The position numbers and the translations under genes are program-made. A stretch of DNA of 64,000 bases, from contig CM067356.1 in assembly GCA_034190875.2 (NCBI GenBank), positions 62,383,154-62,447,153 on the forward strand, read 5' to 3'. Below the pieces are notes generated by a model. That model was given only the letters and a program-made list of their open reading frames with translations. It had not been told where the DNA came from and made no database searches. Source of the stretch: Urechis unicinctus. Taxonomy: Eukaryota > Annelida > Polychaeta > Xenopneusta > Urechidae. Positions 1 through 64,000 of the stretch are shown here, in pieces. Each line of letters opens with the position of its first letter. Position 1 is the stretch's first letter.

Positions 1-2280
1 AACGGGAACATTAGACAAATAAATGCAAATTTGTCATCATTAAATACACCAAGATGTAATAAAGCGCAACCCAATCGGAACATTGTTAGTTTGCGACTGT
101 CTATGGAATAAACATAGGTTGTCTCCAAAATAAACTGTAGAAAATTAGTCAGTGTTATGCGTACTCTCAAGCAATTTTGCAATCGAAACTTTTTAAAATC
201 TATGTAAAATTAATAACGGAAACACTGGATCAATCTTAAGGATTAAAAAGAATTCTATCCGTCATTTTGTGACGTTTGTAATTGTGATGATTCCTTGACT
301 ATTTTGTCTGTATCACCTTTGAAAAGTACTGTTCCGATTGGATCTCTTGACAAATATGATTCCTAAGGACTCGACAATGTATTAATACAAATAAGATAGC
401 CCTGGGAACCACACGCTACTGTTTGCTGTTGCCCAGTGTTCAGTAGAAACAACCACGACTGCTCAAATGACCAAAATAAGTGCACATTGCGATCGCATTA
501 CTGGTCGTTAAAATGTCAGGCACGCCTCTGCTGGGCGACTGAGTGCTGTCGATTGTTGTACACGGCTGATTGGATGCATATAAAAGTATCAGTGTTCGTG
601 GTGGTATACAGCACTCCTTGGCGTTGATTTATGGCTTCATTGTAACCTTAAAAGGACTAATTATATATGCGGTTTACTATTTCAATCAGGCTAGTTTCTT
701 CAGTAGCATTCAGCTACGTTATAAGAGTGCCTCATCGAGCAGTCGTGATTTTAAGTGATGAAAATGATACTTATGATTTTTTTAATAATTTCGGATTTTG
801 CATGACCTATTCCACAGAACAAATATATTGCGCAAACAACAAATACAATACGTCGTTCTATCTTTTATAATGATAAACAAGCACGCATGCAGAAGTTTAA
901 TAGAACTGTTGATAAATGAAAACTGTCTTTTCGAAACAAAACGAATCATTATTTATAAAGTCGGATTAATAGTCAAGAAAACTACAGCAAGGTAGCAATT
1001 GGGCGTTTTCTGTCAAACTCAAACACATGTTTGTCTGGGTCCTAAGATGCCAAGGAATTTAGTCTTATGCCTTCTATCTAAAAACGTGTAACTTGGTCGA
1101 CCCAATAAGTGTTAGGTGATTGATAGCTCCATCTTACACACTCATCATGTAAGCCGCGTTTTATAGTTCCCGTCACGTCAATAGTACGGGCAATGAGCGA
1201 CCCATTGTGATATAAAAGTGTGCGGTCATGACCAGCAATCGATGCGAACCGACATTTCCATTCTATCATCCAACTTGATGCAAGTAGCCGCAAAAAACAC
1301 ATATCTAATACAAGCGCTGCGTAAAAATGGTAAGAACTACGTAAATATAATGCATGGGTATATAATAATATGCTGCAAGTACCCCACAAACACATATCTT
1401 ATACAGGCGCTGGTTCGGAATGATAAGAGCTACGCAAATATAATGCATGGGTCAGAATAGTAAATAATGCAGAGAGTCGGTAATGACCCAGAATTAATTA
1501 CACCTGTGTTTGACACATTTCGCATTGTTAGAGCCTCGCCCGTGGATTAATCATGACTGAATATCGTGATTATCTTGTGCAAAAGTCGCAATATAATGTT
1601 GAAGCGTTGTTGATCATACTTATACCTATTACTACAATGGATTCCGTCCTCCATATACATGCCCGCACTCGATGTTAAACAGGTGATTTGATAGGCGGAC
1701 GCCCCAAAGCATACGCATGATTGGTTAATTTAGAACCAACACGCACGTGATACAATTAATTATGGTAACATTTCAGCCAGTTGGGGAAGAATCGTGGTGT
1801 TTGAATGGTATTCATCATGATCGACTGCCATACTTTATGCCACCCTACCGACGAAACGAGATATTATCACGATATACCTATATTTACTGTGATAATTTAG
1901 AGGATTAGCCTACTTGATCCACTCGAGAACACATAAACAGCCCTAATTTAGCGCTGCCGGCTTGTTCAAACGATTCCTTTTGTAGCGTTCAAGTTGAGTG
2001 CCTGTGCTACATGTTAAACGCTTAACACTTGCATAAAAAACATTACTGGTGTAATTGCAGAAACGATATAATACAAATCAAATGTTAAAACATGGCATCA
2101 TTGCGCGGGTATAGAATATATGATGAATGAGGTAGCGATAGAACAAACTTGGCGAGTTATGTCATATGCAGTAAGTATATTATCATCAGTGTACTACGTG
2201 TCTAACGATCTCCAATGTGCAGCACAACCAACAGCTTAGAACACAAGCCAGCCTACACTAGGATCAAGTCAACTAATGAT

Positions 2281-2320
2281 CATGATAACCATGTGACAAG
2301 ACGATGGGCACGATCGTAAC
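2281..2320. repeat. Box 3 (satellite progenitor site) in A, first
   Basis: CATGATAACCATGTGACAAG leads into ACGATGGGCACGATCG. The two CAYGAT words start 28 bp apart (2281 and 2309), which equals the satellite period. Confidence 0.7.
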
Positions 2321-2461
2321 AATGTGTTGTTATTTCTGGCTGATTGCGTATATTATCTTATTTACTGAATATACCAACATTTACCATAACCTATGATAGT
2401 ACTGATGAGATCGAGTATTTATGAGATGATGCGCCTTTTGTATGAGGAGATGATGTATATT

Positions 2462-2466
2462 GTCAT
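2462..2466. other. 17-bp deletion junction in A
   Basis: A has one GTCAT where A' has GTCAT at 40766 and again at 40783. A 17-bp loss between 5-bp direct repeats. Confidence 0.85.
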
Positions 2467-2835
2467 TGCGGTCAAATGGAGATTGCTTCAATAATGACGC
2501 TTCACAATATTTGCGTTTTGCACCATCTACAGGTAAAATTAGGTATAAAATGTAAACATCGCTCCGCTCAAAATACGCTTAGGAAATCCCATCAAGCGCA
2601 GGCATCAAGCAATCAATGATAGCGTGTCGTCTATTCCTTTGATCAGTCTGATGTCACCACAAAACGTGCCACAAGTCCGTCCTTAATGCGTCACGGACAA
2701 TCGATATATCGCAAGGACTATGATATAGGGAGACATAACAGACTTTGTACAATGATTTAAGCTGTATGACAGGCTGGTGCTCTGGGCGGAAAAGATGTGC
2801 AAGGCTTTATATGCTATCGTTGCAAGTTAGGATGG

Positions 2836-2839
2836 CTAT
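2836..2839. other. 798-bp deletion junction in A
   Basis: A reads GGATGGCTATATTATGCT. In A' the left flank ends CTAT at 41158-41161 and the right flank has CTAT at 41956-41959, 798 bp apart. CTAT is therefore a 4-bp microhomology. The lost segment includes a box 1. Confidence 0.8.
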
Positions 2840-4678
2840 ATTATGCTAATAATGTCTTCCTTTATTACTTTTTCTTCAATACTGAGAATAAAATATCCTC
2901 ATCAGCATTTTCCTCATCAGCCGACGAGTTGCCTTTTACTGACTAACAATCATAAAGTAAAAACGTCGAGGAGCGTCGATCTTGATATAAGATTGTAAAG
3001 CTGATTGTATAAAGTCACGTTCCTGTGTTCTTGTTAATTTGCAAAAACAGCACGTTCGGATCACCTTGTAAATCAGCATATATTGACCAGCGAGAAGCGC
3101 ATGACATGATGGCTATTGCATATTTTACATTCTGTCAGTATATGACAGATTAACACCATTTTCATAAATGTTTTTTTCAATTTTGTCCATGTGGAATATA
3201 CGATGCAGTTGTAGTCATTACGTGTGGCTCATTCGTAGAAACAATTATTTTATCCGCCTGCCAATAGGGCTGCATATCATGGCTCACAGTGGTTTTCTGC
3301 AAGACTCTATTAGAGTATTACGGTTGGGCGTAACAGCAATATCTGACAGGGAACAAAACATATCCGCATAACTACTGAGCCATCGATTTGAGGTACAAAA
3401 TTTTCTATTGTTGTTTCATTACCTATATCAGTCAAGTAAATACATGAGATGTGGTGTCTTTAATTGTTTTATGTTTATATTCACCACGTTCAAGTATTAA
3501 GAGGTACATACACACCATTTATCATTGGAACACTCACCATCCACCATTTAGGGTACCAGTACAAACTGTTTTTAACTTAAAACAAGGAAATTCAAACTCA
3601 ACGTCCGTTCACTGTTACATTCGTATGCCTTTTGTGTTTCCTCTGGTTATCATATTTATCAATGGTCGAAACATTAGGAATAACCATGGCTTAACAAATT
3701 ATACCGATTCATTAGACGAACTGGCGTAAAGTAGCCAAGGCAGCTAAAGTGGGGTACTTCCTAGTCCATCCGTGAGTTTGCAAAGAAAATGCGCTTCTGT
3801 CTTTCAGATTCGGAATATATTGTGTTCAAACTTGCATGGAAGCTTTGACTTCCAGTGCGTTCAACTACGTTTGTGGTTGGTAATGCTCTAGGCGAGAAAT
3901 ATAATGTGATTCAGGGCTATTTATATTCGAGTCGTATGTGCTACACACACCGTTAGTTCTGATGTGACCATTCCAAGAAACATGAATAAAACCGCGTTCA
4001 GATAGTCTATGGTATGAATTACGTATGCTTCCCTCCATTCGACTTGAATTTCTATGATATATCCGCAATAGTTGATTCATTCCTAGAAACAACCATTACT
4101 GCCACGCGATATTACCTCCATTGCATATGCCAGCCAATCCAATTATTATTCCGACATGAACATTAAGGTGAGCATCAAATGACATCCACATTAAACCAGC
4201 AGCTGCATAGGTATTAACCGTTCGGCGTTTAAAAAATGTATATATCATATAAAGTACGTTCTTTGATGTCTAATTGTATATCAAAACGTACATTTGCTCA
4301 AGTTTGATCAAAACAGTCACTCATCTTACCATTCTTTATATCTATCCAATGACCAGTAGGGGTTAGTGTTAACCGTAGAAGTAGTTCAGGACCGTTGTAG
4401 CTACAATCGTCTTACAGCAACAGATTGAATAGCACTTAAACTGCAACAAAACTATTACTACCTGCATCATCATGGTCTCCATTGTCATGTTCGATCATGA
4501 GCTGCATCGAACTCTTTGGGATTAACCTTCATGCAGCATGAACTATATCCGCCAATATTCCGCGGACGTATTCGCTCTTGTACCGTAATACGGACAGCCT
4601 GAGTGTATTGCTCTGAGAAAGGCGCGATAATCTGTTCGATAGCGCAACATACTAAACTTTCCGATTGTGCCGCATGGA

Positions 4679-4688
4679 GGGGGGGGGG
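4679..4688. repeat. G10 homopolymer in A
   Basis: Run of 10 G after GCATGGA, the longest G run in the window. The partner in A' has 9 G. Confidence 0.85.
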
Positions 4689-5770
4689 TGTAATCTAGTT
4701 GCAATAAAATGCAATAACATTCCTAATCGCAGAGGCGCATCCGATGCCATAAACACTGCGTACAATCATCCATTGTTTTTGGATGGTCGATAAAGTCTAA
4801 TTATTGGCTCTAAAACACACAGGAATGGCTAATATGAGCGTCGAGCAGAAATAATAGGAAATTACTAAAACTCAATAGGCTGACATTTGAACTAATACAT
4901 TTCCCTTTTATGCCTGCTATTAAGAGCTAAATAACAAAATTAACTTAGATTGCTTCGAGAACGCGCACTGCAAATCCCACCAATACAAACGGTCCAGCTG
5001 TCTGACGACTAGTGATGGACTATTTGCGCCAGATATACACCACCTTTTAACTGGCGTTTTATTTTCTGGTTGTTCTTCAAATCATGGATCGTACAGTGTC
5101 AGTTTAATGTTCGTATTTCGCGAAACATGAATTAATACAATGCATTTATATTGCTCTTTTTAGTATAGGTGAGACCTACTTATTTTCATCGGTCTAACCG
5201 TGTAGCACATGAGAGCTGATTGAGGTGGGACAGAGCGTTTGCACAATGATGCGACTGCAGAATCTCTAAACCCGTCTACACACAAGGCGTACCAGCCTAT
5301 TTTCAATAGAGGTCACATGTCTTTAATTCAAAATAAGCGGGAGTTGTCATTTAGAGATAGTAAGCAAAGAACATTTGTCCGTTTGGTAATGCTAAAACTG
5401 AGAAATGTATATGATCTAATGGTATCCGCACACATTAAAATAAATATTGTTCGTATTTAGAAAAAAAAATGAATTAATACGGCGCAATCATATCTCCTTA
5501 TTTAGTATAAATGACTTCTTAATAGTCGACTTGGTTATCAATAGTATAGACGCAATACCCAGTTTACTCGAGGTAATGCCTAAATTGTATGCCATTCCAA
5601 TATATGACCCTACATATTGGCAGGCTCAAATGACATCCTAAGCGTGATTTATCAGAATTCATTCGCCACGTTAATAAACGTGTGATTATATCATTCACAG
5701 CGAGATGCGCATCTGTTAAGTGTTCATAGATGTTTGGCATCGTAGCATCGCCGTTTTCGAAAACATATAG

Positions 5771-5870
5771 CTACGATCAACTGTCACGGCTTCCCATTCA
5801 GCAATATATTTAACCTTCCGGTGTTCAACACTAGTTTGCATTCCGAGTGTTCTTAGTGCTTAAATAATAA
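5771..5870. repeat. Box 2 in A, first
   Basis: The landmark starts TACGATCAACTGTCACGG, then TTCCCATTCAG, then GGTGTTCAACACTAG and ends TTAAATAATAAC. It recurs at intervals of about 4 kb in the monomers and helps define the sub-repeat level. Confidence 0.65.
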
Positions 5871-6795
5871 CATTAAATATGTCTTCGCCTTATCACTGCT
5901 TCTCCATTTTTGTTATCGAATATACCCGTACCTAACATTACGACATGCGGGGGTTTGTCTTGTTAGAGGCTCTGTGTGCTGCGACGATCTGTATCGCAAA
6001 TTTCGCATAAAATCCCATGACGTTTTTGTTCCTGGATATACCACATACAATGAGTGTCAATTAGGTTGATAAAGTAATCATCGACACGCCATATATAGGC
6101 TTACGAACTAAGCTTAATATAATCGTGCGAAGAAACACGGCGATAATGTAGCTCATTGTGTTACCTCTACGGGCATGCTGAACGTAATTCCCATGACAAA
6201 AATATGAGAAACTTTAATTTAGACGTCGTCGTGGATGGTCACAACGATATATAGCTCTTTAACCAACAACATATATAAATCTGGTATAGTCGGACGTTCC
6301 ATTGTGAGTGTTTATGCCCGTCTGAATAGATTGCTGATTACCGATTTCGTCACCGAGTGGGGACATAATAACATATCAGCATGTTCCTAGGCCACAAAAA
6401 GTGCGTTTAATTACGCATGTAGCTTCCACCGTCTCATATTGCAAAATATGTCGTGTCATATCACGCCGAGTTTAAATGAACTAATACTCACTTAACTGAA
6501 ATGTATTAAAGCATAGCACTTTCGTAAATGCGACACTGTTTGTGACATTCTAACGAATTGTAACAATATACTTGATGAGGAAAGGGAACGTTTTAGATCT
6601 CTGTTTGTTGCATTTGGTGTCAATGAGTATAGCAAGCAAAGCAAATGCAATTTAGCTTTCTTAATCTTATCTTGAAGGCTTTAAGTACAAAGCTTAGTCT
6701 TTGTCGTAGTATTCTAACTAAACAGTCTATAAGTCCATCGCATATAATTGCATACCATGAATGTTGGTGATGTTGTAGAACATGCATTACGCATT

Positions 6796-6840
6796 GAGCA
6801 AAATAAGCAAGTGACAAGGTGATCGACACGCTCGTAAATA
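6796..6840. repeat. Box 3 in A, second sub-repeat
   Basis: AAATAAGCAAGTGACAAGGT then GATCGACACGCTCG; a diverged relative about 4.5 kb after the first site. Its GACAAGGTGAT stretch matches the satellite. Confidence 0.6.
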
Positions 6841-7438
6841 TGTGATGTAATTGCACGCTGTCGGATGGTGATTGCTTCTATAACCTACCGAAAATATCCT
6901 TATTTACATCGTAATAAGTTAGGCCTGATTAGATAATGGTCTATAAGATGCTACGCTATTTGCAAAAACCCTGTAAGGAGATGATAAACATGTTCTGTAT
7001 TATTGCTGGCTGTAAAATGGCAATTGCTTATACAATTGGGTCTGCAGTGGGGGTAAACATGGGTCCGCAATAAATAAGCTACGAAATCTAGCTAACTCCT
7101 GTCAGTCAAAATCAAGCAAGCATCAATGTTAACGTGTCGCTTTATTTGCGTTATCAGAAATTATTTGCCTCTGTACATTATATTTAACTATACTTTGTCA
7201 CAACCAGGGGGCTCTAGGCAAACGACGTTAAAACTTAGCTGCGTATTTAACGCTGCACCCCAGTATAGTTTTTTTCACTTCAGACAACTGCTGTTGTATT
7301 TGTATGAATCATGCCCCAGTAAACAAATCGTTGTGAATGCTGCATTTGGCGATTCGTTCTGTCGAACAGGATACAGCACGTGTGTGCAATGGGAGATTGT
7401 TCTCTTTTTATCTCTCTGTACTCAGGTTAATGAGAAAT

Positions 7439-7510
7439 AAGGGCGACTGGCAGCCCGCAGACCAGGAGGCGCCTCGCTTGTCCCAGGGAAGCCAGTCACA
7501 GGTCATACAA
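7439..7510. repeat. Box 1 (GC-rich dyad box), copy in A
   Basis: The family reads roughly GGCAACCCGCAGACCAGG followed by AGGCGCCTC, and is the most GC-rich and best conserved short segment shared by the sub-repeats. This copy has the 10-bp palindrome GAGGCGCCTC and then CCCAGGGAAGCCAGTCACAGG. Function unknown. Confidence 0.75.
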
Positions 7511-10181
7511 TGCATTAATTTATTGATATATACCCGGGTCATTAATCAATCAGGTTTGGTCGTTGTCAATCATTATTTGCTTTACACGTTTCGCGAGATT
7601 AAAGAGGTCAATAACAAGCAGCATCACATGAATACCTCATCACTCAATCAATTAAAAACGCATTAGCGTCAACGTAGAAAATGAGCTAATCAAAGGCATA
7701 CACTTTCTGCTATTTTAGAAATTCAATCCAACAGAATTTTACCTTTCACCTTTTAGACAATTGATATGGAGGTACATTGTTTTACAGATTGTTATTGATC
7801 GGCGGAAAAACGCTGACCCTGCCCTTTTTATCTTTTGCGGCCACAAAATTATCTCTCAGCTGAACATTATGTTAGTTAGTGAAATGTAGGTCAAGCTGCC
7901 AGCAGACAGAAGCAAAATCATTTCCCTTTTTGCTGTCCAATTGATACTGTGACATTATGTTTTACAGTTCGACGACCAAGTCTGTTAAAAGGCAACGCCG
8001 TATTTTCGGTTCCATATTTTAAAAAGGTTTCGTTGATGCTGCTTTATCATTGATATAGACCTGTGCGCGATGATCAGACCAACACCGATATATCAATGTC
8101 CTCCATTTAAATACTTTCTTCGATACATCTGATCAAGTCACGTTATTGTTACCATCAGCCGTCGACGTTGATAATGTGTGCACCCCAATTATACTACCAG
8201 TCGATGCTGCAAACATATTGATCTAAAGTGATGAATTTCCAAATGCATAGCTGCCGATAGTAGCGTTGAGCTTGTGAGTATCAATTGCGAACATTTAAAG
8301 AACAACAGTCACATACATTCTTAGGCATAGTTATTGGAACTGATCTAGGCTATTCGTGCCCGACTTTATAACAATATCTGTTACACATAAGTGTGGGATT
8401 TTGTGCGCTGTCAAAGCGCAGAATGAACTAAAAGTTACGCGATTCCATGACAATAGGCAGACGAGCGTTTCGCTGTGAACAGCTGGGCAGATGTATTGTT
8501 ATTACGTTAAGACTAAAAAAGGACGTTTGCTCTAATTTGGGTTTAGCTCAGCACCATCCCTATTGTAATACCCTGCCTGTAGACCAATATAACTTGTATT
8601 TATTCGAGTGTTCGAAATAGGTCGGTGTATCATAGGATAAAGATGCTGATATAAACTGCTTAAAAAGTCATACTCTGGCATAAGACCCATATGTGCGTAT
8701 AGTGGCACCTGGTCCCCCGCAAAAACTCCAGTGCGGCAAATATTTTATTCCGTTTGTTGAGGCATACTTACCTTATGGCGGAGAATGTGATAATTCGAAT
8801 TCTAATATTTACACAATGGTTCTGTATTGTATTGAATAAGGTGTTTTATAAGCGCAAGATATATGTTCCATTGCTGTTGATGTTCAAAAAAGCACCTAGT
8901 CCTTGGGTTACATTTGTATGCTGTTATTGTTATTTTGGCTGTTGTTGTTGTCAGTACCCTCTTAATTGAAAAATGCGCATATGAAAGAAGCACTTATAGC
9001 ACCTTCGCACAAGATTCATTCATTACGGTATATTATAAGAGAAAGAAATTGTACGAGCTTGATTCAACTTTCAATTACTATTCACTCCGTAAATGTTATT
9101 TGTATTTGCACCTGCTTGAATAATCAATCAGAAACCTGTAATAACGAAATTCCTGTGAGGCATGAATTACATCTCGTACTTCTCTTATAGAGACACCATT
9201 TAAATAGAAACGTTTGCTCAAAAGGCAACAAATACCATATAGTTTTCGCATGATAATTTTCGCCTGAAAATAAAATTTTATTTCACACGTCTGACTTATA
9301 TCCATTGCACTGGGCAGTAACAAAGCGACTAAGGAAATTTACCGATTATTATACGTGTGAATCTGGCTGCAACGTTCTCATGATCCAACTAGTATATATT
9401 TTGATGGATGGCAGAACCTGGCCGAATAGTTGTGTTTATTTATTGCATCGGTTCTTATCAAAGTAAAAGATATGTTGTGATCAAGAGAATTTAGATTGCT
9501 GTGCGTGCTGTTCCATTTTGATTTATCGACCAATAATCATATGACAAACACGTTTTAGAGAGTCCATTAAGTAAGTATAACATTTCAAAGCAGAAAGCAT
9601 AGAACCATATATTGTCGCCTTTGATGTTTTCATATAAACACCAAATATATGAAATGTTATGATTACCTTGAAAATCAATGTATATTGGCCCAGTCAAATA
9701 CGTTACAGTATGGCATTAAGCCTATAGCATACATAAAAACAAACCAGTTCATATGTGTCCAAATATTTAATACGTCAGCCTAGCTTGGTGAATGTGCCGC
9801 ATGTTTATCAGTTGTGATTTTTTTTACATTTTTGTCACTGCAGATTTTACAATACATTTGTAACCATTGCATTTGGCCAATGAAAGTACAAATGTATTTT
9901 ATCCACACTGTGTCAGACCAGGAACATATGCATATTGAGCCATACATATTATTTGGTATTGTTCTCACCCTGACTCGCTGCTTCATTAGCGGGTTTTATC
10001 AGTTTAATCTGTATTGCGTGGGTTTCTCAAACACTATGCTGTCGTGGCAACAAAAAGGCAAAAGTCATGGGTAATTCCTCAAGTGAGATATCAACACAGA
10101 AGCCGTTTCATTTCACAATAACTTGGTGAAAGCATTCGTTTATGAAGCTATCTTAGTGTCGCCATTTCGCACACATAAAGT

Positions 10182-10241
10182 TACGATCAACTTTTCTTGC
10201 CTTCTTATTTAGTGATAGCAATAACCTACCAATGCGTCAAT
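10182..10241. repeat. Box 2 in A, second (shortened)
   Basis: TACGATCAACTTTTCTTGCC; a 37-bp stretch present in A' (TTCAACATCAGTTAATATTC and neighbours) is missing here. Confidence 0.6.
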
Positions 10242-12877
10242 ATAAACTTAGGTTTCTACAGAATATTGCACTAAAAGCATCATGGTTGCGCAAAATGTGA
10301 TTATAACAACAGCGTCTATTGATATCCATAAAAAGTCACATAGGCATGAAGCGTAAGTGCTATAGAACAGAGCCGAATTACTAGAAACATTAACAAATTA
10401 TAACGTCACACGCAGCATTTGTATTGCAATAATTGGCAGTTTTTAAATGTCTCTTATGGTATATTTAAGGTTTTATTTTAACTATAACAAGTGTCTTGTG
10501 TACTCCATATCCATTCAACCAAAGTGTTATGCACCATAAGTCGGCACGAAACAACAAATACATCGCACCGACCTTTGGGCGGTAACTCAAATAGCTGATA
10601 TATTTTTACCATATGAATGTAGATGTTTTTTGCCTTCTCCATAACGGCTAGCTGAGCGGACACAATATACAATACAGTCACATTTAAGAACAAGGGACGT
10701 GCCTCATTCTACATTTCTTTAAACGCCCACGGTGCACCGGAGGATTAAACCGATTTGGAATCACTTATATTTTAGTCCCTAAATAATCACGTGAGAATTT
10801 CATGATAGCTTAACGCATTCAGTCTTCTTAATGTGGTGTCAAATATAATTCATTCCTCGATAAACTCATCTAAGGGTGTAAAGACGACCGTATTTGTGCG
10901 ATATTACAACGCAATATGGAATGCACTCTGTTGACCTACGATGTTTATGCAAAAAGGAATCATGTTTGTGACAGCACAGTGTTGGCGCATCTATGCGGGC
11001 ATCCTTTCAAGATTTGCCTTAAAAAGACATCGTGCATTTATGAGGAGTCAACCATATGTAGAGTAGAAATTGGCGAGCGTGAATACTTAAGGTAATAGCA
11101 TTAATTCGACAGAACCATCTGTAATCAATATTTTACATATTGCGTTCTTGCATTAGAAATTATTCATTTAATCGTGCATATTTCAGAACAAATCAAAACG
11201 TTACTATTGTGCATATGTACAATGCTCTACATCCATGCTCTGACCAGAAGGGAGTATGCTGAATCACAGTAGTAGTTCAGGACCGACGGCAAATACAAAG
11301 TTAATTAAATCATTTCACAGCAAAAGATTGAACAGGCTTTTATTTCACAACTGATGTAACCAAAAATATATTTGTGTTTTCTGATTTTTCAAGTTCAATG
11401 ATGAACTGCATCGAACTCTAATAAAATACAATGCACTACATATGCTCATTATTCCACGATGGATTCCGTTAAGACCAGCGATCAACACCTATTAGATGGA
11501 CTAATTGGTCAATTCTTTGCAAAGTTTTCTCAAAATACGAGAAACCTCCCAACAGAGAGAGCAATATACTGCTCTTCATGTGTGGGCAGCGTCGTCAGAT
11601 AATTTGATTGCAAAGAAATACTATAGCATTTCGTATTTTAGTGACGCACCAGTTGCCATGAACACTGCCAACAAGCTTCCATTCTTGCAATAGACGAAAT
11701 ATGAGCTCCAGTATGCATATTAGTGCTGTATTCTTTTTCAATTTTTTTCGGAAAAGGAATCGAAGAGGAGCCATAATGCTTGCTTTTAATCTTATTCGTG
11801 GGGCTCTTATCACATAAGATGTATTTATAGCAAAAACTCATCTAAGATTTACAAACATGATAAGACTTCTAATATCTGCATGTTGTTAATATCCAGGCAT
11901 GCGTCTTGTACTATTCTGCGCAAGTTGCCTAAATTGAAATAAACACCACCCAGACACATTGTTCCAGTATGACACCTGCAAGGTATCTAGGAGTAATACA
12001 CTTAATTTTATAGTAGTCAGTCACAAGCGGCAGATAATTATATGCCTTTAAAATATTTAATTAAAAATGCGAACCTTTTCCAGAACATGATCGTTGAGTT
12101 GAGGTCACTTCGCACTTCAGGACAATGTGTAAGATGACAAAAAGACAGTTATGTATTCATATCGCTATTTCAGCAAAGCTGTTTTTTAAGTGATGCAGGG
12201 AAAATTCATTTGAACCTTGAACAAATTTGACAGCTCAATGATGACAGAAACCAGTATAATCCAAAAGAACCGCAAACGTTTCTGATAAAATATTATCCCC
12301 CCATTCTGAAATGTGGCTAGGCATTTGATAAAGTATAAAATACCCTAAATATTTACCAATCAATGTGTTCTGATGAAATCAACAGCTCGAGCAGTGGATT
12401 GACAGAGATTTTGTGAGCTAATCCGCTTCTAAAGTCACTGATTGCCTTATATATGTATTTGCACTTACATACCTTTAAAAAAATAGGGTTTACGTCAAGA
12501 ACCGTGGCGTCTCTTATGTATATTTATCATCCCAATAAGAAATAAGATCATGTTATAGTTTTAGAGACGCATGATATATCCTTGTTAGCCTGGTGAAGCA
12601 CATATGACAGAACTTCTTTATGCACAGGAAATTGCGGATTATTTGGCCGGAGCAATTTACTCATCCTAATTGCATATTAGTGTTATTAAATTTTTGAGCA
12701 ATTTGTCGCATAAGCAAAGCCATGCAAACCGGTGGCCTGACTCATGTGCTGTTAACCTTGCAGATGTCAACCCAATTAATTCGTTCAAGGGGTTTCAGGC
12801 GGTCTTGTCATTGTATAAATGAATGCTGAACGCCTTTAACACCACGAATGGGGATCAAAGGATTTTTGCCGATAGGT

Positions 12878-13132
12878 CACGTGAGCTATATTGAATACTT
12901 TTCTATATACGGTGGAAGTGAGCTTGCAGCTGAGTGCCATTCAAGGTGAATGTGGTAAAATGACAGATTAAACACGTCGGCACTGACCACGTGATATAGT
13001 GTTGAGGCGATACAAAACAAATTGCGACACTTAAGTACATTCAATTAGAAGTTATCGAATCAAAACAACCGTGGATATACAATGCGAATAGAAACATGTT
13101 CATGTATGAGAATATATGTACGGTATCACGTG
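12878..13132. other. Three CACGTG sites at the A/B1 boundary
   Basis: CACGTG at 12878 (in GTCACGTGAG), 12988 (in CCACGTGAT) and 13127 (in ATCACGTGAC). The trio is kept in A' at 51789, 51898 and 52037; C keeps two (38052, 38151) and B2 one (29709). CACGTG is the core of many bHLH/bZIP sites and of the yeast CDEI element (RTCACRTG), but without the organism no factor can be named. Confidence 0.5.
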
Positions 13133-15578: not shown

Positions 15579-15610
15579 AGCACGATAGTCATGTGACACG
15601 ATCGTAAAAA
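15579..15610. repeat. Box 3 in B1, first
   Basis: GCACGATAGTCATGTGACAC joins ATCG directly, so the segment between the two CACGAT words is about 9 bp shorter than in A. Confidence 0.6.
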
Positions 15611-49011: not shown

Positions 49012-49090
49012 ACGATCAACTTTTCTTGCCTTCTTATTTAGTGATAGCAATAACCTACCATTGTTCAACATCAGTTAATATTCTAAATGC
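49012..49090. repeat. Box 2 in A', second
   Basis: Partner of 10182 but complete, retaining the 37 bp that A has lost. Confidence 0.65.
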
Positions 49091-52000: not shown

Positions 52001-54233
52001 CAATCATGTACGAGTATGAGAATAGATGTACGGTATCACGTGACTTGGTTTGATTGCTGCATGATCGTCTTGACCCATCTGATGCATGTAAACCTATACC
52101 CATGGCTATCACTTCAGAATTGGCCTAAAACCGCACCTACTCTGACCACTAGCGACAAGGCCATTCCTATAGAGTCTGGTTGCTTATCGGGAACATCAGA
52201 CATAAAGATGCACGTTAGTCATCATCATATACGCAACCCATTCGGAACATTGTTAATTTACGAGTGTCTATATGATCAACATAGGTTGTCGCTATACTTT
52301 GCTGTAGAAAATAAGTCAGCGTTATCAGTTTTAATGCGTACTTTCTAGCATTACTGCAATTCAACCTTTTTAATTTGTTTTTACTATTAACAACGGAAAC
52401 GCTGGATCAATCTTAAGAATTATAAAAGAATTTTCAGAAAAACAAATTTCTATTCGTCATTTTGTGACGTTTATAATTGTGATGAAACATTGACTATTTT
52501 GTCTGTATCATTTTTGAAAAGTGCGGTTCCAATTGGCACATATGTTCCCTAGAGACTCGACAATGTATTAATACAAATAACACAACACTGGGGACCACAC
52601 ACTGCTGTTGCTGTTGCCCAGTGGTCAGTAGACACAACCACGACTGCTCAAATGACCAAAATAAGTGCACATTCCGATCCGATTACTGGTCGTTAAAATG
52701 TCAGGCACACCTCTGCTGGGCGACTGAGTGCTGTCGATTGTTGTACACTGCTGATTTAATGGGATTGGATGCATGTAGAAGTATATGTGTTCGTTATGGT
52801 ATACAGCACACCTTGGCGTTGAACATGGCTTCTTCGTAACCTTAAAAGGACTAATTATATATGCGGTTTACTGATTCAGTCGGGTCAGTTTCTTTCGTAG
52901 CATTGAGTTACTTTATTAGAGTGCCTTGTCGAGAATCAGTCGTGATTTTAATCTATACTTATCATTATTTTGTTTAATAATTTCTGATTTCATATTCTAC
53001 AGTTGGATCAAATATATTGCGCAAACAACAAATACAATGCTTATTATAGCAAATCAAGCTCGTTTTGTCTGGGTCGTAAGATGCCACTTGATTTAATCTT
53101 TCTACCTATAAACGTGAAACTTGGTCGAACCAATAACTGTCAGTTGATTGGTCGCTCCATCTTACGCACTCGTCATGTAAGCCGCGTTTATAATTTCCGT
53201 CACGTCAATAGTATCGCCATTGGCGACCAATAGTGATATCAAAGTGTGCGGTCATGACCAGCAATCGATGCGATCCGACATTTCCGCTCTATAATCCAAC
53301 TTGATGCAAGCTCCCCACAAAAACATATGTTATACGAGCGCGCCGTTGCAATGGTAAGAACTACACAAATATAATGCATGGGTAAATAATGTAGACAGTC
53401 GGTAATGACCCACAATTAATAACATTGATTTTTGTCAGATTTTGCATTGTTAGTGCATCGATCATGCAATAATTAAAACGGAATGTCGTGATTATCTTGT
53501 GCAAAAGTTTTCATGAATTATTGGTCTTGCTTATACCCATTACAACAATAGATTCAGACCTCCATATAAATGCCCGCGCCCGATATTTACCAGGAGTCTT
53601 GATAGGCGGACGCCCAAAGCAAAGTATGGTTGGTTGGTATAGAACCAACACGCACGAGATGCAATTAATTATTATAACATTTTAGGCGGCTGGGACAGAA
53701 TTGTGTAGTTTGAAAGGTATTCATCCAGATCAACTGCCATACTTTATGCCGCCATAACGAAGCAACGTGACATTTTCGCAATAAACCAATATTTTTTGTG
53801 GTATTGTAGAACACTTGATCCACTCGAGAACGCATTAACCGGAACTGCCCTCTTTTCAAAGCAATTTGCGATCCATTTTAAGCGCTCAAGTTAAGTGTGA
53901 AAATGACCATTACAAGCTAACTTGGGGAAATAAGTTAATATTTGTTCCGACAAGATATCAAGCGTAAATATGGCACACTAGTACTAAAATGACAGATCAT
54001 CCGCTGTTATCACGGGTTTTACCAAAACTGTCGATTTATATGAGGTTCTATTTATCGCTGTTCCTAAGTGCAAAAATAATACCAAAACAACAATAAGTAA
54101 AATTTATTGTTGGAAACCATCACAACACATCCTAGCCCTGCACGTGACATTTAAAATAATTCCTTGAAAGGTTCATCGCAGTTACTTACATGCCGTGACC
54201 GTTGGTGATGTTATTAACAATATATAACTTAAT

Positions 54234-54262
54234 GAGCACGATAGCCATGTGACACGATCGTA
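54234..54262. repeat. Box 3 in B1', first
   Basis: Partner of 15579 with the same short form: CACGATAGCCATGTGACACG then ATCG. Confidence 0.6.
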
Positions 54263-55091
54263 AAAAATGTGTGGTTATTTCAGGCTCATTGCGTCTATTA
54301 TCTTTTTTACTTAATATACTAATAATAATACTAATATCTACAACAAAACATATTTTGACTAATGAGATCATTGTAAGATGATGTGCCTTCTGTACGAGGA
54401 GATGGTGTATATTGTCATACAAGCTGATGTGGCATTGCTGTCAAAGTGTGATGGCTTCAATATTGCTGCTTCACAATACTTGCGTATTTGCACCTTCTTC
54501 AGCTTAGGTATAAACTTTTCAAATCGGTCCGCACAAAATACGCTTTGAACGTAACTCCCATCAAGCGCAGACATCGAGCAAGCAATCTATGAAAGCGTGC
54601 CATCTCTTTCTATGGTAGCGCTAATAAACAAACTGAAGTCACCGAAAAACGGGTCTAAGTCAGTTCCTAATGTGTCGCGGTCACTAGGCTGGTTAATCAC
54701 TTAGATGCACGGATTATGATAGAGAGGGACATAATACACTTTGTACAATGAGCTATATCACACGCTGACGCTCGGGGCAGAAAAGATGTGCTAGGCTTCG
54801 TATAGTATCGTTGCCTGTCTGGAAAGCCATTTTGCAATTTTCTAGTTCACTCCATGAAACTACTGTTGTATTTTAACAAGGCACGCGAGGCGATACCTGC
54901 TCAATTCGTGGATGGGTACAATATGGTGCAATATTTACTGCCGAGGTCAGCGATCACTGTGAATGCTTGGTAGAGCTTCGCCTTTTGAAAGAGATATCGC
55001 AAGTGTGTGCAGTGGTCAATGGCTCGCTTTATCTGTCTCAACGTTATGGCACTCGGGTCTAGGAATCAGGGGACTACAGGGCCTGATAAAT

Positions 55092-55147
55092 AAGGGCGAT
55101 AGGCAACCCGTAGACCAGGGGGCGCCTCCTTGCGTCTCTAGGAAGAC
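55092..55147. repeat. Box 1, first copy in B1'
   Basis: Partner of 16431; GGGGGCGCCTCCTT has one change that weakens the right dyad arm. Confidence 0.7.
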
Positions 55148-58100
55148 AAGCACTTTTAATAAGCGGCCGGTTCATTAATCAGTTAGATGGCGCCCTTGTC
55201 TCCCGGTATTTGTGCAACGCGATTGGCTTGATTGTAGAGATCAATAACAAACAGTATCACATGCGAAACAATTTTTCTTAATCTATCGAAAGCGTATAAA
55301 CCTCATTGTAGAAAATGAGCTGCCTCTCAGCGAATCCACTCCAGTCGCGCATCAATTGTCGCTGTGGCGTTGTAACTTTAAACGCCATTGCACTTTGCCT
55401 ATGATGGTTCAGGGAAATAATAACGGGGTAGATGGTTAGCTAATAATGAATATTTAGCGGTATTATGCTGACATTGCTGCTTTTATTTATTGCCAATCGT
55501 ATGCCACTGGCGTTTTGCCTTAAGAATCAAAATGTAGGCGAAGGCAGATTTTTGAACCAATACTGTTGCAGTAAATGTGAGAGATCGCCGACCAAGTTCG
55601 TTTAGTATTGTAAACTAGCAATGTTTTCCTTTATTACTTGCACTTCAATACATCGGAATATCATAATCAGCAGCAGAGTTGTAATTTACCGACTAAATAC
55701 CTAGTAAATCGTTTTCCTGGAGAAAATAGGATTTCAAAGCCGAAAGTATACAGGCACAATCTTGTCGTTATGGTTATTCGCACATTTGAATCACCAGGCA
55801 TACCAGAATATGTTTGACAAGACAAATGCCATTACATTGTGGCTATAGCGTGTATTGCATCTTGTCAATAAATCATAGACTGACAACCCGTTGATAAATG
55901 ACCTCAACTTGAATAAATGTTACGCCGTATATTGATCAGATGTACATTTTGAACATGACTTTATAATTTCGTCCATTACACATGGTCGATGTGTTGATGC
56001 GTGTATTTGATCAGACAGCTAATCAAGTGACCTGTGCTGCATATAATGGCTCTTAGTGTCCCTCTGCAAGACAATGAGATCAATACGATCAGGTTTATCG
56101 AGCTTTTAACTGAGAACGATACATATCGGCATACTCATTGAGCCCTCGATTTAAGATGGTATCGTTGCCGTCTGGACATTTGGAATGTACAAACGGACTA
56201 GTACAAACTGTTATTAAAATGGCATTTAAACTTGACGACTGTTCAATCTTACCGTTATATGCGTTTTGTTTCGTCTGCAATGCATAATTACTAATGGTCA
56301 CAAAATTAATAGTTCCGTGACTTAACACATTTTACTGCTTCATGGATGTACTGGCGTAAAGAGGGCCAAGCAGTCAAAATGAAGTGCTTCTTGACAAATA
56401 GCTGCACACACAATGCGCAGCTGTCATTCAGGTCCATAATATAATGCATTCAAACTACTAACTACGTTTATGCTTGGTAATGACACTAGCGAGGTAGAGA
56501 AAAAAAAATCAGAAATAGTTCTGTCTTTATATATTCAAAACACCTATGCTGCACACATCATTTTTATTGATTAATTAATTCTACGAAACAGACATTAATA
56601 CAGCGTTCAGCTATCCAAATTTGCATTTACCAGCCCATCCAATATCTATCCCAACCCGACCATTTAGTCAATCATGACATCAAAAGTAAACTAGTGCTGA
56701 AACTGTACAGCTAAACGGGTACGGGATAAGCATATATTCAGTGCGTCATTCTGCAAGCATGCATCTATATTCAACTTTAAATTCCCATTCAGTAATTGAA
56801 ACGACCTTCTGGCGTTCGACATATGAACATTGTAAGATTATAAGAGCATTATGGCAGCACGCTGTGTCAACATATTGTTAGCCTCATCAACTTGATTATT
56901 CGGGTGCACAAATCTGAATTGTTGCCATTAATCAAAATCACCACAGAACGCAGCAATTTCCATTGATACATCAATAAATAAATATGTTAGTATTGCCAAG
57001 CGCACGCAGTATGTTTATTGCGAATTTGCTCAGTCATAAATTTGGTTTTATGATGTTGTTAGAGATAGCTTGAGGGGTCATGTGTACTACATGCTTGTTT
57101 TATTTTCTATTGACACCTATCACTTCATTGTGTTGTTACTCAATTAAAACGATGCATTATTTCCGTATTACTGAAGGCGTTGTTTTAAATATTCCAGAAT
57201 GGCTTCACCAGCTTTGCGGACCTAATGCACAACAGAGTCATGGTTAAAGAGAACATTCTGTGAATGAAATACATGCCCATAATGTTAGAAAAAGTGTGGA
57301 AACTGTTGATAGGGCTACATGCATCGATAACTCTCTGTGGATGACTCAAATCAACACCTTTTTGGTCGCGAAACCATTACGTAATGGTGTATGGTCTCCT
57401 TATTCTAGTGGCAACCTCATTTTATCCCTCACTGTTTCACTCCATCAAGGAATGGTAATAAAGACCGCCATATTGTTACAAGATTACTACAACGTATGAT
57501 ATGTGGTTTGTGGACTTACGATGTTGATACAAAGCGAAACAAACGTAAATATATGTTGTGTCGGCATATCTGGGCAAGCATAACATCATGTCTTGCCTCA
57601 GTAGGACGCTGCATATTATTTATGAGGAGTCGACCTCGAGGCATTATACGCCAAGAAGTAGTATGCAAGCGTGGATGCATCAGAATATTGTTGGTACAGC
57701 TTATAAAATGTATATTAGCCGATTCATAAGGTCATTGACCGTTCGGCTGTGTTTGATTAATTTATTTATCCCATGCAGTTCTTTCTTTGATAACAAATTA
57801 TTTATAATAACCTAAATATCTTCGATTTGTTCAAACATATGTACAATTCTCTATATCCTTCTAAGGACTAGTAAGGCATGTTTCAAAAACATCTGTCTAT
57901 ATCATGCATATCAGCTAACGTTCAATAGTGACAACATGTTCTTAATTAAAACTTGGTAGGAGCTGTCATTTAAGAGTTATGAGAAAAGTAAAGCAACTAA
58001 CAAGTCGTGTTTTGGCTATGCTGTAATTGAGGAAAAGAATATGATTAAGGACAAATGGGAATCTATTTTGGATGAGTTGCGAGCATCATTGTTATTAATG

Positions 58101-58481
58101 CACGTATGTCGCACAAAATGAATTGATGCAACATAATTATACCTCTTACTGAGTATTAATGACATCTACTCCTTTTTTATTCAATTTGGCTATTAATTTT
58201 ATGTCCGCTTTACTTGATTAACTCATAACTAACGGCATTTTTTGTTTATCAAAATTGCAAATGCCAGGTTTAAATTCTTTGAGATAGAGATGTGGACATG
58301 CATCATATAGCAACCAAAGCGAGATTAATCAAGATAACAAGGCGGAAGCATTCGTCAAGTTGACAAATTAGTGGTAACACTGTTCACAGCATAACTCTTT
58401 GGAATGAGATGTGCATCTGCCTACTGTTTGCAGATGTTTATGAAACTGTATCGTAGTCAACGCATTTTCGCAAACAAAGAG

Positions 58482-58583
58482 CTACGACCAACTGCCACTG
58501 CCTTCCCGTTAAGTGTTAGAAATAACCTTATAAAGTTCAACTACAGTTTGTATACTGAGTGTCGCAAATGGGTAAATAAAAAC
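58482..58583. repeat. Box 2 in B1'
   Basis: CTACGACCAACTGCCACTGC; closer to the family start than its B1 partner at 18889. Confidence 0.6.
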
Positions 58584-59390
58584 ACCCAACATGTTTCCGC
58601 AGAGTAACTGCTGCCATTGCCGTGTTACCAAATACACCAGTATTGGGTGTTACAGGCGCATATTTTTTTAATCCGGATGCGAAGTTATCCATTGCGAGAT
58701 TACATACAGGCCAAGGTTACGTTGTGACTCATTGATACATAATTACACCTCATCGTAGTAGACACTTCCTTCTAGTCGCCAATGAGGACAGTTTGCTTTC
58801 AGATGGCTGCTTTGCGCGGCTCATTCACAAGACCGCTGTTGATGACCAAAACGACTGGCTTATTGCAAACTCGGTAGCTATGTAATGTATCGCATCACCA
58901 TGCCTTATGTCTCATTTGCATGGCGATGCTGCCGTATTTTTTCTATGATCGAGCATCCGTAATAAAAGAGAGCATGAGAAAATGTAGAGCATGGCACGTT
59001 CCTCTGGGCGCATGCTAGAGGTAATTCCCACTACAAAACTTTATAGAACTTTGCTCTACTTCAGGATTTATCTTGACGTAATTGTGGGTGGTCAATTGTT
59101 GAAAACAGACAGGAGATGAAGCGTTTAAATAAACGTCGGATCAATATCTGCTATAGCCAGACATTCTATTGTTAGTGTTTAGGTAGATTACTTATTACTG
59201 ATTACGTCACCGAACGGGGATCACAAAACTGTATCCGCATGTTCTAGACCACATACATTATGTTTCATTACGACCACATGTAGCTTCTGCTGTCTGCATT
59301 TTTTCGTATTGGAGAACAATGGCGTATGAGATAATCGCATTACGACTGTTGATAATGCTGTCGACCAGACACTACGCGACGAGCAAAATA

Positions 59391-59420
59391 AGCAAGTAAC
59401 TAGATAATCAACACGGTCGT
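59391..59420. repeat. Box 3 in B1', second
   Basis: Partner of 19790, including the GTAAC change. Confidence 0.55.
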
Positions 59421-60215
59421 AAATATGTGATGCAATTGCCAACTGTCTGATGGTGATCGTTTCTACAATTTTACTTCCGAATATACCCGCATTTACATCT
59501 TCATAAGTTAGGACTGATGAGGTCATGTTCTATAAGATGTTGCGTCTTTTGTGTGCACTTGCATCGTGAACTGAGCAGATAACCCTATAGGGAGATGATA
59601 TACATGATCATAGACGCTAGTGTGTCATTGCTGACTGTCATGTGGTAATTGCTTGCATAAATGTGCCGCGCAATCTTAGCATATTAGCCACAGTTTGTGT
59701 CAATTAGGTTTGTCAATATGAACATCGGTCCTCAATGAATGAGCCTAGGAACCAAAAAAACTGCTACTAGCGTAAAATTGTGCTGGCAATCAACGCAAGA
59801 GTGTCCCTATGATTGTGCAAGTAATCAGACCAAAGTCCTAAGAAACAGAGCCTTGAGGGGTAAACACAAGTCCTAAGTGCGTCAGACTTCCATTGCTCAT
59901 TAATCAGTAAATTGCATGTAGTGCGATATACAACGACGCATTTGCCTCTGGCCTTATAAATTATCACATTGTCGTGCGTCTAGGCAAATAAAGTTGTGCT
60001 GAGCTGCGTATTGAACGTAGAGTAGAGTTAATGTGCCATTGAAAAATGCACTCAAGACAAGAGCGATTGTATTTGTGTAAATCATGTCTTAGTCAACAAT
60101 CGTTGTGAATGCTGCATTTGGCTCTTTCTGTTGCACATGATATAGCAAGTGTGTTATATGGGACGTTGCTCTTTTAATTTATCTGTACATTATTGTACGC
60201 AGGTCAATGATAAAT

Positions 60216-60282
60216 AGAAGTGACAGGCAACCCGTAGACCAGGAGGCGTCTCCCTGTGTCACAAGGAAGCCTGTCACAAGTC
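60216..60282. repeat. Box 1, second copy in B1' (cut by deletion)
   Basis: Partner of 20621, interrupted at CACAAGTC where it fuses directly to B2-type sequence starting GCTGCACATAATTAAG. Confidence 0.75.
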
Positions 60283-60283
60283 G
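60282..60283. other. 4,333-bp deletion junction (satellite-removing)
   Basis: CTGTCACAAGTC joins GCTGCACATAATTAAG. In copy 1 these flanks end at 20685 and start at 25019, so 20686-25018 is absent here, including the B1/B2 join and the whole 28-bp array. At most one base is shared at the junction. Confidence 0.85.
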
Positions 60284-60671
60284 CTGCACATAATTAAGTA
60301 ATTATTGTTCGTATTGTGAGAAAATTAATAGGCGCAATTTTATCCCCTTATTTTGTTCAATTAACATCTACTTCTTTAGAGTGGACTTGACTATCAATAG
60401 TATATACGCAATACTCAGATTTCTCGAGGATACCGCCATAACTAAGCACCTTTTAATGCCTATTTTGTATGCCATTGCAATATCTGCTCCTACATATGGG
60501 CAAGTAGCAAATGGCTTCCATAGCGCGATAAATCAAGATAATGTGGCGAAATCATTTGCCAAGTTAACAAACCTGTGGTAAAACTGTTCACAGCCAGATG
60601 CGCATCTGTTAAGTGTTTTACAGATGTTTATGAAACTGCATCTAAGCGTCGCCATTTCAGTAACTCTAGTG

Positions 60672-60707
60672 CAACGATCAACTCTCACTGTCCTCCCATT
60701 CAGTGAT
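60672..60707. repeat. Box 2 in B2', truncated
   Basis: Only CAACGATCAACTCTCACTG through CATTCAGTGAT remains; the rest lies in the 236-bp deletion. Confidence 0.65.
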
Positions 60708-60708
60708 C
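60705..60708. other. 236-bp deletion junction in B2'
   Basis: CAGTGATCGGCGCGCC fuses the equivalents of 25386 and 25623, with AT shared at both flanks. Confidence 0.8.
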
Positions 60709-62291
60709 GGCGCGCCATATATAGGATAACCAACTAAGGCGAATATAATCGTGCACAAAAATAATACCATTAAGCATTCAGATTTGTTCAATCATTCATT
60801 TGATTGCGCTAGTAATCCTCCGCCATACAACATGATGCCAGGGATAAAACAATAAGGCATTAGCAACCCGTTTATACATAGGTGTATATAATTTTTTAAT
60901 ACAAAGCTAGATATTGGACCTCGTATAATGTAATAAACAAACTGTTATCCCAACTTGTGGCTCTGGCTGTGTAAAGCCGCATTTACTATTGTTACAAATT
61001 AGCAAAGCCATATGTGTTCAATTTCCATAGCTCAACATAGAAAACAATATTTGTACTTGAATTAAACTTGCTTGAGCTCTTCTACAGTACCATTGGTGAC
61101 GGGGTAGATTTCATGCATTCGCTACTGGAACAAGAGCATCGCTTCGCATTTGGTTGTAAAGTTATCCATTAAGAGTTTAAAAACAGGCCAAGTTTACTGT
61201 GATTAATTGATACCTGATTACGACGCAACGCAGTAGTCGCCAAAACGGACAGTTTGCTTTCAGATAGCTGCTTCGCGCAGCCCATTTACAAGACCGCAAA
61301 GCTGTTTATGTCTGATATGACTTACTTTTGCAAACTCAGTAGCTATGCAATTCATCACATCGCCATGGCTTATGCCTCGATGCTGCTGTATTTTTTATAT
61401 TATCCTGCATCCTTAATGCAAAGGGCGCACGCGATAATGTAGCTCATTGTGTTACATTTTAGGGCATGCTGAAGGGTAATCCCGTAACAAACATATTGCT
61501 TTGTTCCTGTGTATATCTAGACGTCGTTATGGCTGGTCACGAGGAGATGTAGCTCCTAAACCAACAGCAAAAATAAATCTGGTACAGTCGGTCGTTACAT
61601 TGTTCGGGTTTATGCACGCCTCAGTAAATAACTGATTACCGATTTTTGGTCACCGAGCGGGTAGATAATAGCATATCCGCATGTTTCAGGCCTCAAATAG
61701 TGCGTTTAATTAGGCTTACATGTAGCTTCTGCTGTCTCATATTTCATATTGGAAATTACAGCGTGTCATATCACGCCCAGTCAAAACGAACTACTACGCT
61801 CTCATCCAATATGTATTAAAGCATAGCACTCTCGAAAATGCGACACTGTTGGAAACATTGCAACAAATTGTAACAATATACATGATGCCTTAAGCACAAA
61901 TCTTAGTCTTTGGGGTTGTATTCTAAATAATCAGTTCACAAGTCAATCGCAGATAATTTCATGCTGTGACAGTTGGTGATGTTGTAGAATAATTATGCAA
62001 TCAATCAATGTAAACGTGTCGCTTTAATTGCGTAATCAGACAATATTTGCCTCTGTACAATGTTTTTCACTATGCTTTGTCACAACCAGGTGGCTCTAGG
62101 TAGACGACGGTGTGCTAGGCTGCGTATCTAACGCTGCCTCTCAGTATAGCAATAGCACTTCAGACAACTGCTGTTGTATTTGTATAAATCATACCCAAGT
62201 AAACAAGCGTTGTGAATGCTGCATTTGGCGATTCTTTCTGTTGAACACAGCACGTGCGTAAAATGGGAGAATGTTTAATCTCAATGATAAA

Positions 62292-62360
62292 TAAGGGCGA
62301 CGTGCAGCCCGCAGACCATGAGGCGCCTCGCTGTGTCACAGGGAGGCCAGTCACAGGTCA
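62292..62360. repeat. Box 1, copy in B2'
   Basis: Partner of 27205 and apparently identical over the GAGGCGCCTC and CTGTGTCACAG dyads. Confidence 0.7.
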
Positions 62361-64000
62361 TTCAATACATGGTTTTATTGGCAGATGCCCGTTCCTTAAT
62401 CAGTCAGGTTTGTTCGTTGTCAACCTTATTTGCTTTACACGATTAGCGAGATTGAAGAGGCCAAAAACAAGTAGTATCACATGAATACATCATCCCTCGA
62501 TCAATTGAAAACTCATTAGCGTAATTGAAAAAATGGGTTACCTCTTAGCGAATCAACGGCAACAACATGTTGTTTTTTTGGAAATTCAATCCAAAAGAAT
62601 TATACCTTTCACCATCAGCAAAATTGAAAAGGTGGCTCAATGTTTTGCCGAATATTATTGATCAGCGGAAAAAGGCTGACCTTGCCCTTTTCATCTTTTG
62701 CGGCCACATATTTACCTTTGGGCTGAATATTGTGTCGGTTAACAGAAGCAAAATCACTTCTCTTTTTACTGTCCAATTGATACTGTGGCAATATATTTTA
62801 CAGACCAAGTATGTTATAAGCCATCTCCGCATTTCCGGTCGGTTATTTTAAAATGGATTTGTTGGTGCTGCTTTATCATTGATATTGGCTTGTACGTGAT
62901 GATCAGACCGACACCTAAATAACAACGGCCACCAGTACAACACTTTCTTCAATACATCAAATCAAGTAACGCTAGTGTTATCATCATCAATCGACGTTGA
63001 TAATGTGTGCACCCAAATTATACTCCCAGTCGATGCTGCAAACATATTGACCTAAAGTGATGAATTTCCATAACTGCTGATAGCTGCGTTGAGCTTGTGA
63101 GAATTATCAATTAGAACATTTTAAGAACAGCAGTCTCATACATTATTTTGCATATTAATTGGAAATGATGCAGGACTTTGTAAAAATATCTTACACACAA
63201 ATGTGTAGAGTTTTGTGCGTTAATAAACCGAAGGCTTGGCAGATGTATTTTCGTTATATTAAGAATGCAAAGGTCGCTTGCTTTTATTTGTGTTAAGCTC
63301 AACACCTTCTTATGTTAATTTATTCGAGGGTTCGAAATATGTCGGTGTATCATGAGATAAATATGCTGATATAAACTGCTTAAAACGCCATACTGTGGCA
63401 GACGGCCCATCTGCGTTCATAGTGGCACCTGGTCCCCCGCCAAAAATCAAGAACGGCAAATATTTTGTTCCGTTTGTTGAGGCATACTTGCCTTATGGCA
63501 GAGAAGGTAATGATTAGAATACTAATATTTCCACAATGCTTCTGTGTTGTATTGGCACCAATGTATAAGGGTTTTTATCAGCGCAAGATATATGTTCCAT
63601 TTCTCGTGATATTCAAGAAAGCATCGATCCTTTGGGTGTCTTTTGTATTCTGTTATCTTACACTGCCAGCTGAATTGAAAAATTTGCATATGATAGAAGC
63701 ACTTTTACCACGTTCGTACAAAATTCATTCATTAAGGGATAACATAATTGAAATTATAGAAAAACATAGTAGAGCGTCCATTAGCTATATATAACATTTC
63801 AAAGCAGAAAGCATAGAACCACGCTATTGTCGCCTTTGTTATTCTCACAGGCTCAAAAACTATATGAAATGTCATGATAACCTTGAAGATCAATATATAT
63901 ATATTGGCCCAGTCTAATGCGCTTTACAGTCTTGCAAAAAGGGTTATAGCATACATAAATGTCAACAAACCTGTTCTTATATGACCACAAACGGAATACG

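Follow-up and report, generated by a model that had tools for sequence, protein, structure and literature searches.

A locus-specific, apparently non-coding array of 8-14-kb monomers with higher-order structure in Urechis unicinctus

The genome of the annelid Urechis unicinctus (GenBank assembly GCA_034190875.2) contains, on contig CM067356.1 (C15 below), a 156-kb tandem array in which monomers of 8-14 kb are organized into higher-order units. Mapping by BLAST and a 500-bp type map across C15 62.23-62.51 Mb places the array at about 62,305.5 to 62,461.517 kb, so that it extends past both ends of the window, the 64,000-nucleotide stretch at C15:62,383,154-62,447,153 on which the analysis is centered. 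The best account, to which we assign a probability of roughly three in four, is a macrosatellite-like array, non-coding, higher-order in structure and specific to this locus, that arose by stepwise tandem duplication and exchange. All results refer to one assembly, with 1.19 Gb of sequence in 926 contigs.

The array consists of three A-B1-B2-C units and two extra A-like monomers (D1 and D2), bounded on each side by diverged partial monomers. From left to right, it comprises a diverged edge, unit 1 (A0-B1-B2-C), D1 and D2, unit 2, unit 3 and, at the end, an incomplete monomer with a start block that shares 83-87% identity with the other start blocks. The orientation is nearly always direct, with the exception of one inverted block in unit 1 at about 62.327-62.330 Mb; within the window, 148 of 148 self-BLAST matches (E<=1e-10) are direct. 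Long direct copies occur at offsets of 39.1, 39.05, 38.6, 39.6 and 35.1 kb, the last of these reflecting a deletion. The period of 38-39 kb in the original prediction, which was made from the letters of the window, holds as an approximate 38 kb but not as a strict period, because the units measure 40.9 kb (unit 1), 38.2 kb (unit 2, window positions 1-38207) and 37.5 kb (unit 3), with 26.8 kb of D1 and D2 interposed between units 1 and 2. The window contains the following monomers:

1..13277, plus strand: monomer A of unit 2, about 13.3 kb (self-BLAST, 500-bp type map)
13278..21170, plus strand: monomer B1 of unit 2, 7.9 kb, matching monomer positions 0 to about 7.8 kb (self-BLAST, type map)
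21171..29487, plus strand: monomer B2 of unit 2, 8.3 kb, beginning near monomer position 1.76 kb (self-BLAST, type map)
29488..38208, plus strand: monomer C of unit 2, 8.7 kb, with an internal deletion relative to A (self-BLAST, type map)
38209..52187, plus strand: monomer A' of unit 3, 14.0 kb (self-BLAST, multiple alignment, type map)
52188..60285, plus strand: monomer B1' of unit 3 (self-BLAST, multiple alignment, type map)
60286..64000, plus strand: monomer B2' of unit 3, continuing beyond the window (self-BLAST, type map)

A monomer of about 13 kb, as originally proposed, describes A (13.3 kb) and A' (14.0 kb) well, but not B1 (7.9 kb), B2 (8.3 kb) or C (8.7 kb), which are shorter because they are truncated or deleted forms of the ~13-kb unit. 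Additionally, B2' lacks 4.3 kb that unit 2 has around the B1/B2 junction and in B2.

Sequence comparisons show that monomers of the same type are much closer to each other than to their neighbors. In the main self-BLAST pieces, A/A', B1/B1' and B2/B2' are 88-97% identical, while unlike monomers mostly share 66-86%, with short pieces up to 91%. Multiple alignment gives 95.9% for A/A', 93.8% for B1/B1' and 97.0% for B2/B2', against 61-82% for the other pairs. Both methods thus recover the four monomer types that had been predicted, related yet diverged and rearranged, together with their near-identical primed partners. Across the start blocks of 11 monomers, identity runs from 90.3 to 99.5% within a type and from 83.4 to 88.6% between types, two ranges that do not overlap when the D1 and D2 starts are counted as type A. 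Uniform identity among monomers, which the prediction had named as evidence to the contrary, is not seen; the types differ.

Phylogenetic trees give the same picture. The start-block tree (11 rows, seven of eight inner branches starred) groups three C, two B1 and five A-or-D starts, with support of 99-100/96-100 for the A/D, B1 and C clades. The second-block tree (13 rows, 5/10 inner branches starred) unites three A, three B2, three C and two B1 monomers, each group at 100/100, and the third-block tree (9 rows, 4/6 starred) does so for three C and two A monomers, again at 100/100. Since the identity ranges do not overlap and the type clades are well supported, the pattern goes beyond chance. 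In their aligned parts, the units are 95.9% (1/2), 95.6% (1/3) and 96.1% (2/3) identical and D1/D2 98.0%, figures that lean high because the unit comparisons use only pieces of at least 86% identity, which amount to 29.5-32.2 kb per 37.5-40.9-kb unit. Monomers at the same position in successive units are therefore more alike than adjacent monomers, and the unit is repeated in tandem three times, in a short array interrupted by D1 and D2. The type-clustered trees and the identity matrix reflect a true higher-order structure, as the original prediction held.

The divergence between units is distributed unevenly. A comparison of unit 2 with that portion of unit 3 which the window covers, in 87 windows of 250 bp, gives a mean divergence of 4.0%, with a variance six times the binomial expectation and a lag-1 correlation of 0.68, a value that none of 2000 permutations reached. 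Near copies of this kind might also come from retained haplotypes or mis-joined contigs, as polymorphic genomes can yield false duplicates a few per cent apart. Such an assembly artefact is, however, very improbable here: the eleven start blocks show graded similarity, the three units lie 3.9-4.4% apart in their aligned parts, and diverged edges, mosaic identity and unit-specific indels all argue against a simple duplication in the assembly.

Genome searches show that the array family is locus-specific and no genome-wide satellite. Three array probes give at least 48, 11 and 28 matches (all match counts of probes are lower bounds), and every match listed lies on C15 between 61.69 and 62.46 Mb. 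Two of the probes come from the following features:

430..600, strand not assigned: best conserved monomer block (alignments)
20447..21035, strand not assigned: module among the most widely repeated (alignments, genome search)

The 431-bp probe around the first has at least 11 matches, all listed ones inside the array, and the module has at least 28, all listed ones on C15 at 61.69-62.45 Mb. A direct tandem array of kb-sized units, apart from the one inverted block in unit 1, confined to one locus among the listed matches of the three probes, fits macrosatellites and megasatellites. The short monomers and very high copy number of classical satellites are not found; the monomers measure 8-14 kb and exist in about a dozen copies at one locus.

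The flanks of the array differ from each other. In the examined part of the left flank, relatives of the array cover 20% of the length, and 166 of 522 matches are inverted. The left flank at C15 62.23-62.305 Mb also has inverted repeats of up to 5.8 kb at 96% identity, separated by 42-53 kb, and direct repeats at a spacing of about 17 kb. On its minus strand (L028:1410-3412) are retrotransposon-like open reading frames (ORFs), presumably of the Copia type; the one scanned (L028:2010-2453) matches RVT_2 at 2e-38. This reverse transcriptase ORF, together with the recurrence of some modules within monomers, could hint that the array represents tandem copies of one large transposable element. That origin is extremely improbable, as the listed matches of the three probes include no copy off C15 and Pfam scans of the unit found no protein family of transposons (no separate search was made for terminal repeats). 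The examined part of the right flank has no detectable similarity to the array and is part of a second local duplication family, with at least 30 probe matches, all listed ones on C15 at 62.47-62.63 Mb. Poly-A/T runs of at least 10 are scarce across 62.26-62.51 Mb, where 4 of 25 10-kb bins have one each, and CpG shows little depletion (0.77-1.02).

Tests for coding content return a largely neutral pattern. In diverged copies, the fraction of codon changes that are synonymous is 0.18 (113,174 overlapping windows), compared with 0.19 in simulated neutral and 0.59 in simulated coding DNA; in near copies it is 0.25 (1,728 stop-free windows), compared with 0.27 for neutral and 0.68 for constrained coding simulations. 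Of 311 indels between copies, 45 have a length divisible by three. For unit 2 without its minisatellite, six-frame Pfam scans gave a single match, below the cut-off (RecO_C, E 0.068), while Rfam at the gathering threshold and ARAGORN each gave 0. With six of the seven stop sets, the longest ORFs lie within or below the range of three Markov simulations; with TAG alone as stop, one ORF of 742 codons slightly exceeds the longest simulated one (711). Alternative genetic codes were rejected, with ORF lengths near simulation and a mean 3-periodicity of 1.07 versus 1.02 simulated. The three longest start-to-stop ORFs sit in a minisatellite, and two more (123 and 129 amino acids) lie outside it:

22327..23356, strand not assigned: 28-bp minisatellite, 37 copies, 96% matches (Tandem Repeats Finder, TRF)

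This minisatellite is long only in unit 2; its counterpart interval in unit 1 is about 0.44 kb, and it falls within the 4.3 kb absent from unit 3. Minus-strand ORFs of the REIKRA..THL type looked exon-like at first and were discarded, as their array copies share stops. Two open families of this type outside the array, in the left flank or at 61.72 Mb, have nonsynonymous-to-synonymous ratios (pN/pS) of 0.7-2.2 (6 pairs), and Pfam returned weak sub-threshold matches for one of three such ORFs and nothing more. Searches for a phage origin (window 1-7990) and a plasmid origin (window 7400-15300) gave no match to phages or plasmids, respectively; one 20-mer searched in viral_contigs and one in genome_contigs each gave 0 matches. 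With an overall neutral substitution pattern and negative Pfam scans, the purifying selection on coding exons that marks a tandem gene family is not found. Judged by its sequence, the array shows no coding signal overall, with few short exceptions, in line with the apparently non-coding character first proposed.

At its right end, the array meets a gene. Two exon-like minus-strand ORFs (L021:1477-3119) belong to this neighbor: the first, Ser/Thr-rich, spans 62,462.56-62,463.12 kb and has a splice-donor-like end, and the last exon, at 62,461.48-62,461.74 kb, includes a likely transmembrane segment, both features being recognized by eye. The product is apparently a single-pass membrane protein, and neither exon has a Pfam match above the cut-off. 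Similarity to the array starts inside the last exon, where the array has its right end, and the C monomers carry a copy of the gene's tail:

31762..32226, minus strand: copy of the 3' end of the right-edge gene (last 13 codons, stop, 3' flank), 87.7% identical (sequence alignment)

The same tail is present in C of unit 1 (87.9%) and unit 3 (88.7%), and its short frame is intact in all three. These copies suggest that amplification took in sequence adjoining the right-edge gene, although the direction of events is deduced. Beyond these C-monomer tails, a tblastn search of the two exons against the array found only weak, chance-like matches, and the best other match of the exons (E 0.071) lies in the left flank.

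Several observations weigh against an array that is wholly non-coding and without function. Ten of the 30 best separate diverged-copy windows have a synonymous fraction between 0.43 and 0.59, which places them within the 5-95% interval of simulated coding DNA (0.43-0.72). The conserved block near 400-600 accounts, with its copies, for four of these ten, on both strands; the block is not read as a shared exon because its copies differ by single-base indels. The one valid array pair of the ORF-like module, at 83% identity, has a pN/pS of 0.56 over 65 codons, and a tiny exon elsewhere in the array is possible. Moreover, block 430-600 stands above the rest, with 40-bp windows of up to 97.5% identity in alignments that are at most 88% identical overall (median of all windows 74%), a level of conservation that could point to a functional role. 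A palindrome-like CGTCATTTTGTGACG lies at about 260, upstream of this block.

Two further explanations build on such observations. The monomers might be the remains of duplicated multi-exon minus-strand genes akin to the right-edge gene, and thus a decayed gene cluster. The gene tail preserved in all three C monomers and the module pair at pN/pS 0.56 fit this scenario, yet it is unlikely, since similarity ends inside the last exon, the tblastn matches beyond the tails resemble chance, the ORF-like module has shared stops, and neither an overall coding signal nor a Pfam match above the cut-off is seen. Alternatively, the array might be a functional non-coding element, such as a long RNA, a small-RNA precursor or a chromatin boundary comparable to human DXZ4, whose copy number is under selection. 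The single orientation of nearly all copies and the ~170-bp block conserved well above its surroundings are compatible with this possibility. We consider it quite improbable, because local copies at unrelated, blindly chosen sites (described below) suggest a general neutral process.

The locus-specific, non-coding array would instead have formed in several steps. A non-coding stretch of about 13 kb, lying amid similar older duplicates, first duplicated in tandem, and its copies then diverged by ~15-30% and suffered deletions, as alignment shows. Next, the four-monomer block A-B1-B2-C duplicated in tandem at least twice, as the type-clustered trees and the 96-98% identities show, with A-like monomers added on top. 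Unequal exchange and gene conversion may keep the interior copies patchily alike while the edges decay; patchy divergence and diverged edges fit either process in an array grown stepwise. Diverged edges are also a feature of alpha satellite arrays. This scheme would require no product or function to account for the array.

The behavior of the array is that of a macrosatellite with higher-order structure, a class with precedents. The prediction that the repeat belongs to an undescribed class does not stand, given the human examples of a higher-order repeat of six ~3.5-kb monomers and of 12-kb gene-bearing units in the excerpted text of PMC2588610. The former, the LTR (long terminal repeat) megasatellite of chromosomes 13, 18 and 21, derives from LTR retrotransposons, and unequal crossing over has been proposed for it (Warburton et al. 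2008, PMC2588610). It resembles the present array in its kb-scale monomers of distinct types and its higher-order unit. Unlike that megasatellite, which occupies three chromosomes with monomers about a quarter of the size, the Urechis array has 8-14-kb monomers at one locus, with no transposon protein found. Human macrosatellites include DXZ4, with a 3-kb unit free of RepeatMasker transposons, and the Gor1 array at 8q21.2, whose 12-kb units, similar in size to the monomers here, each have a gene (PMC2588610). They too are large-unit tandem arrays at a given locus, but the excerpted text mentions no nested monomer types for them, and Gor1 is gene-bearing. The NBPF 3mer higher-order repeats, as excerpted from PMC9584774, are likewise built from kb-sized monomers, though of ~1.6 kb and inside genes. 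Alpha satellite higher-order repeats share the type-clustered monomers, but use 171-bp monomers at human centromeres (PMC2588610) rather than kb-sized ones at one non-satellite locus. Among the records listed in a literature search, none describes a higher-order repeat with monomers of this size in its title or the beginning of its abstract.

Probes from other chromosomes indicate that this genome may have many such arrays. Control stretches were picked blind at round coordinates on C3, C5, C9, C12 and C17, and four of the five (C3, C5, C9 and C17) have copies in their own neighborhood. The C3 probe has 97% copies at distances of 85 and 91 kb and further copies from 24.7 to 25.2 Mb, while its matches off C3 are at most 318 bp long. 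The C5 probe has a full-length 85% copy 139 kb away, with 9/9 matches on C5, and the C9 probe has 84-85% copies 108-195 kb away, with 50 of 51 matches on C9. For C17, a full-length 95% copy lies 4.5 kb away; its many other matches fall mostly on a simple-repeat-like middle (40 of 8532 candidates scored). Among the 40 of 364 candidates that were scored for the C12 probe, there is a short dispersed repeat but no local copy. At C9:30.748-30.936 Mb, copies at 30.805, 30.848 and 30.892 Mb follow each other at 43,547 and 43,623 bp, and a second set lies in the gaps; this spacing suggests a likely further higher-order array of long monomers. At C8:43.795-43.808 Mb, four short matches at 4.1-4.2-kb spacing also suggest a tandem array.

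The local copies of four blind probes, the C9 spacing and the second private family in the right flank raise the tentative possibility, which we put at somewhat less than even, that the array represents the normal state of this genome. Much intergenic DNA would then consist of families private to one neighborhood, non-coding blocks repeatedly duplicated within a few hundred kb and in places higher-order, and local duplication rather than transposon spread would be a main engine of the 1.19-Gb size.

Collectively, these findings document that higher-order repeats can evolve from monomers as large as 8-14 kb in DNA that appears free of genes, which implies that the process does not depend on short monomers. 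They also carry a warning for annotation and assembly, as blocks of this kind may be misread as genes, haplotype duplicates or transposons. If the blind-probe result is true genome-wide, local duplication would be a major source of intergenic DNA in Urechis unicinctus.

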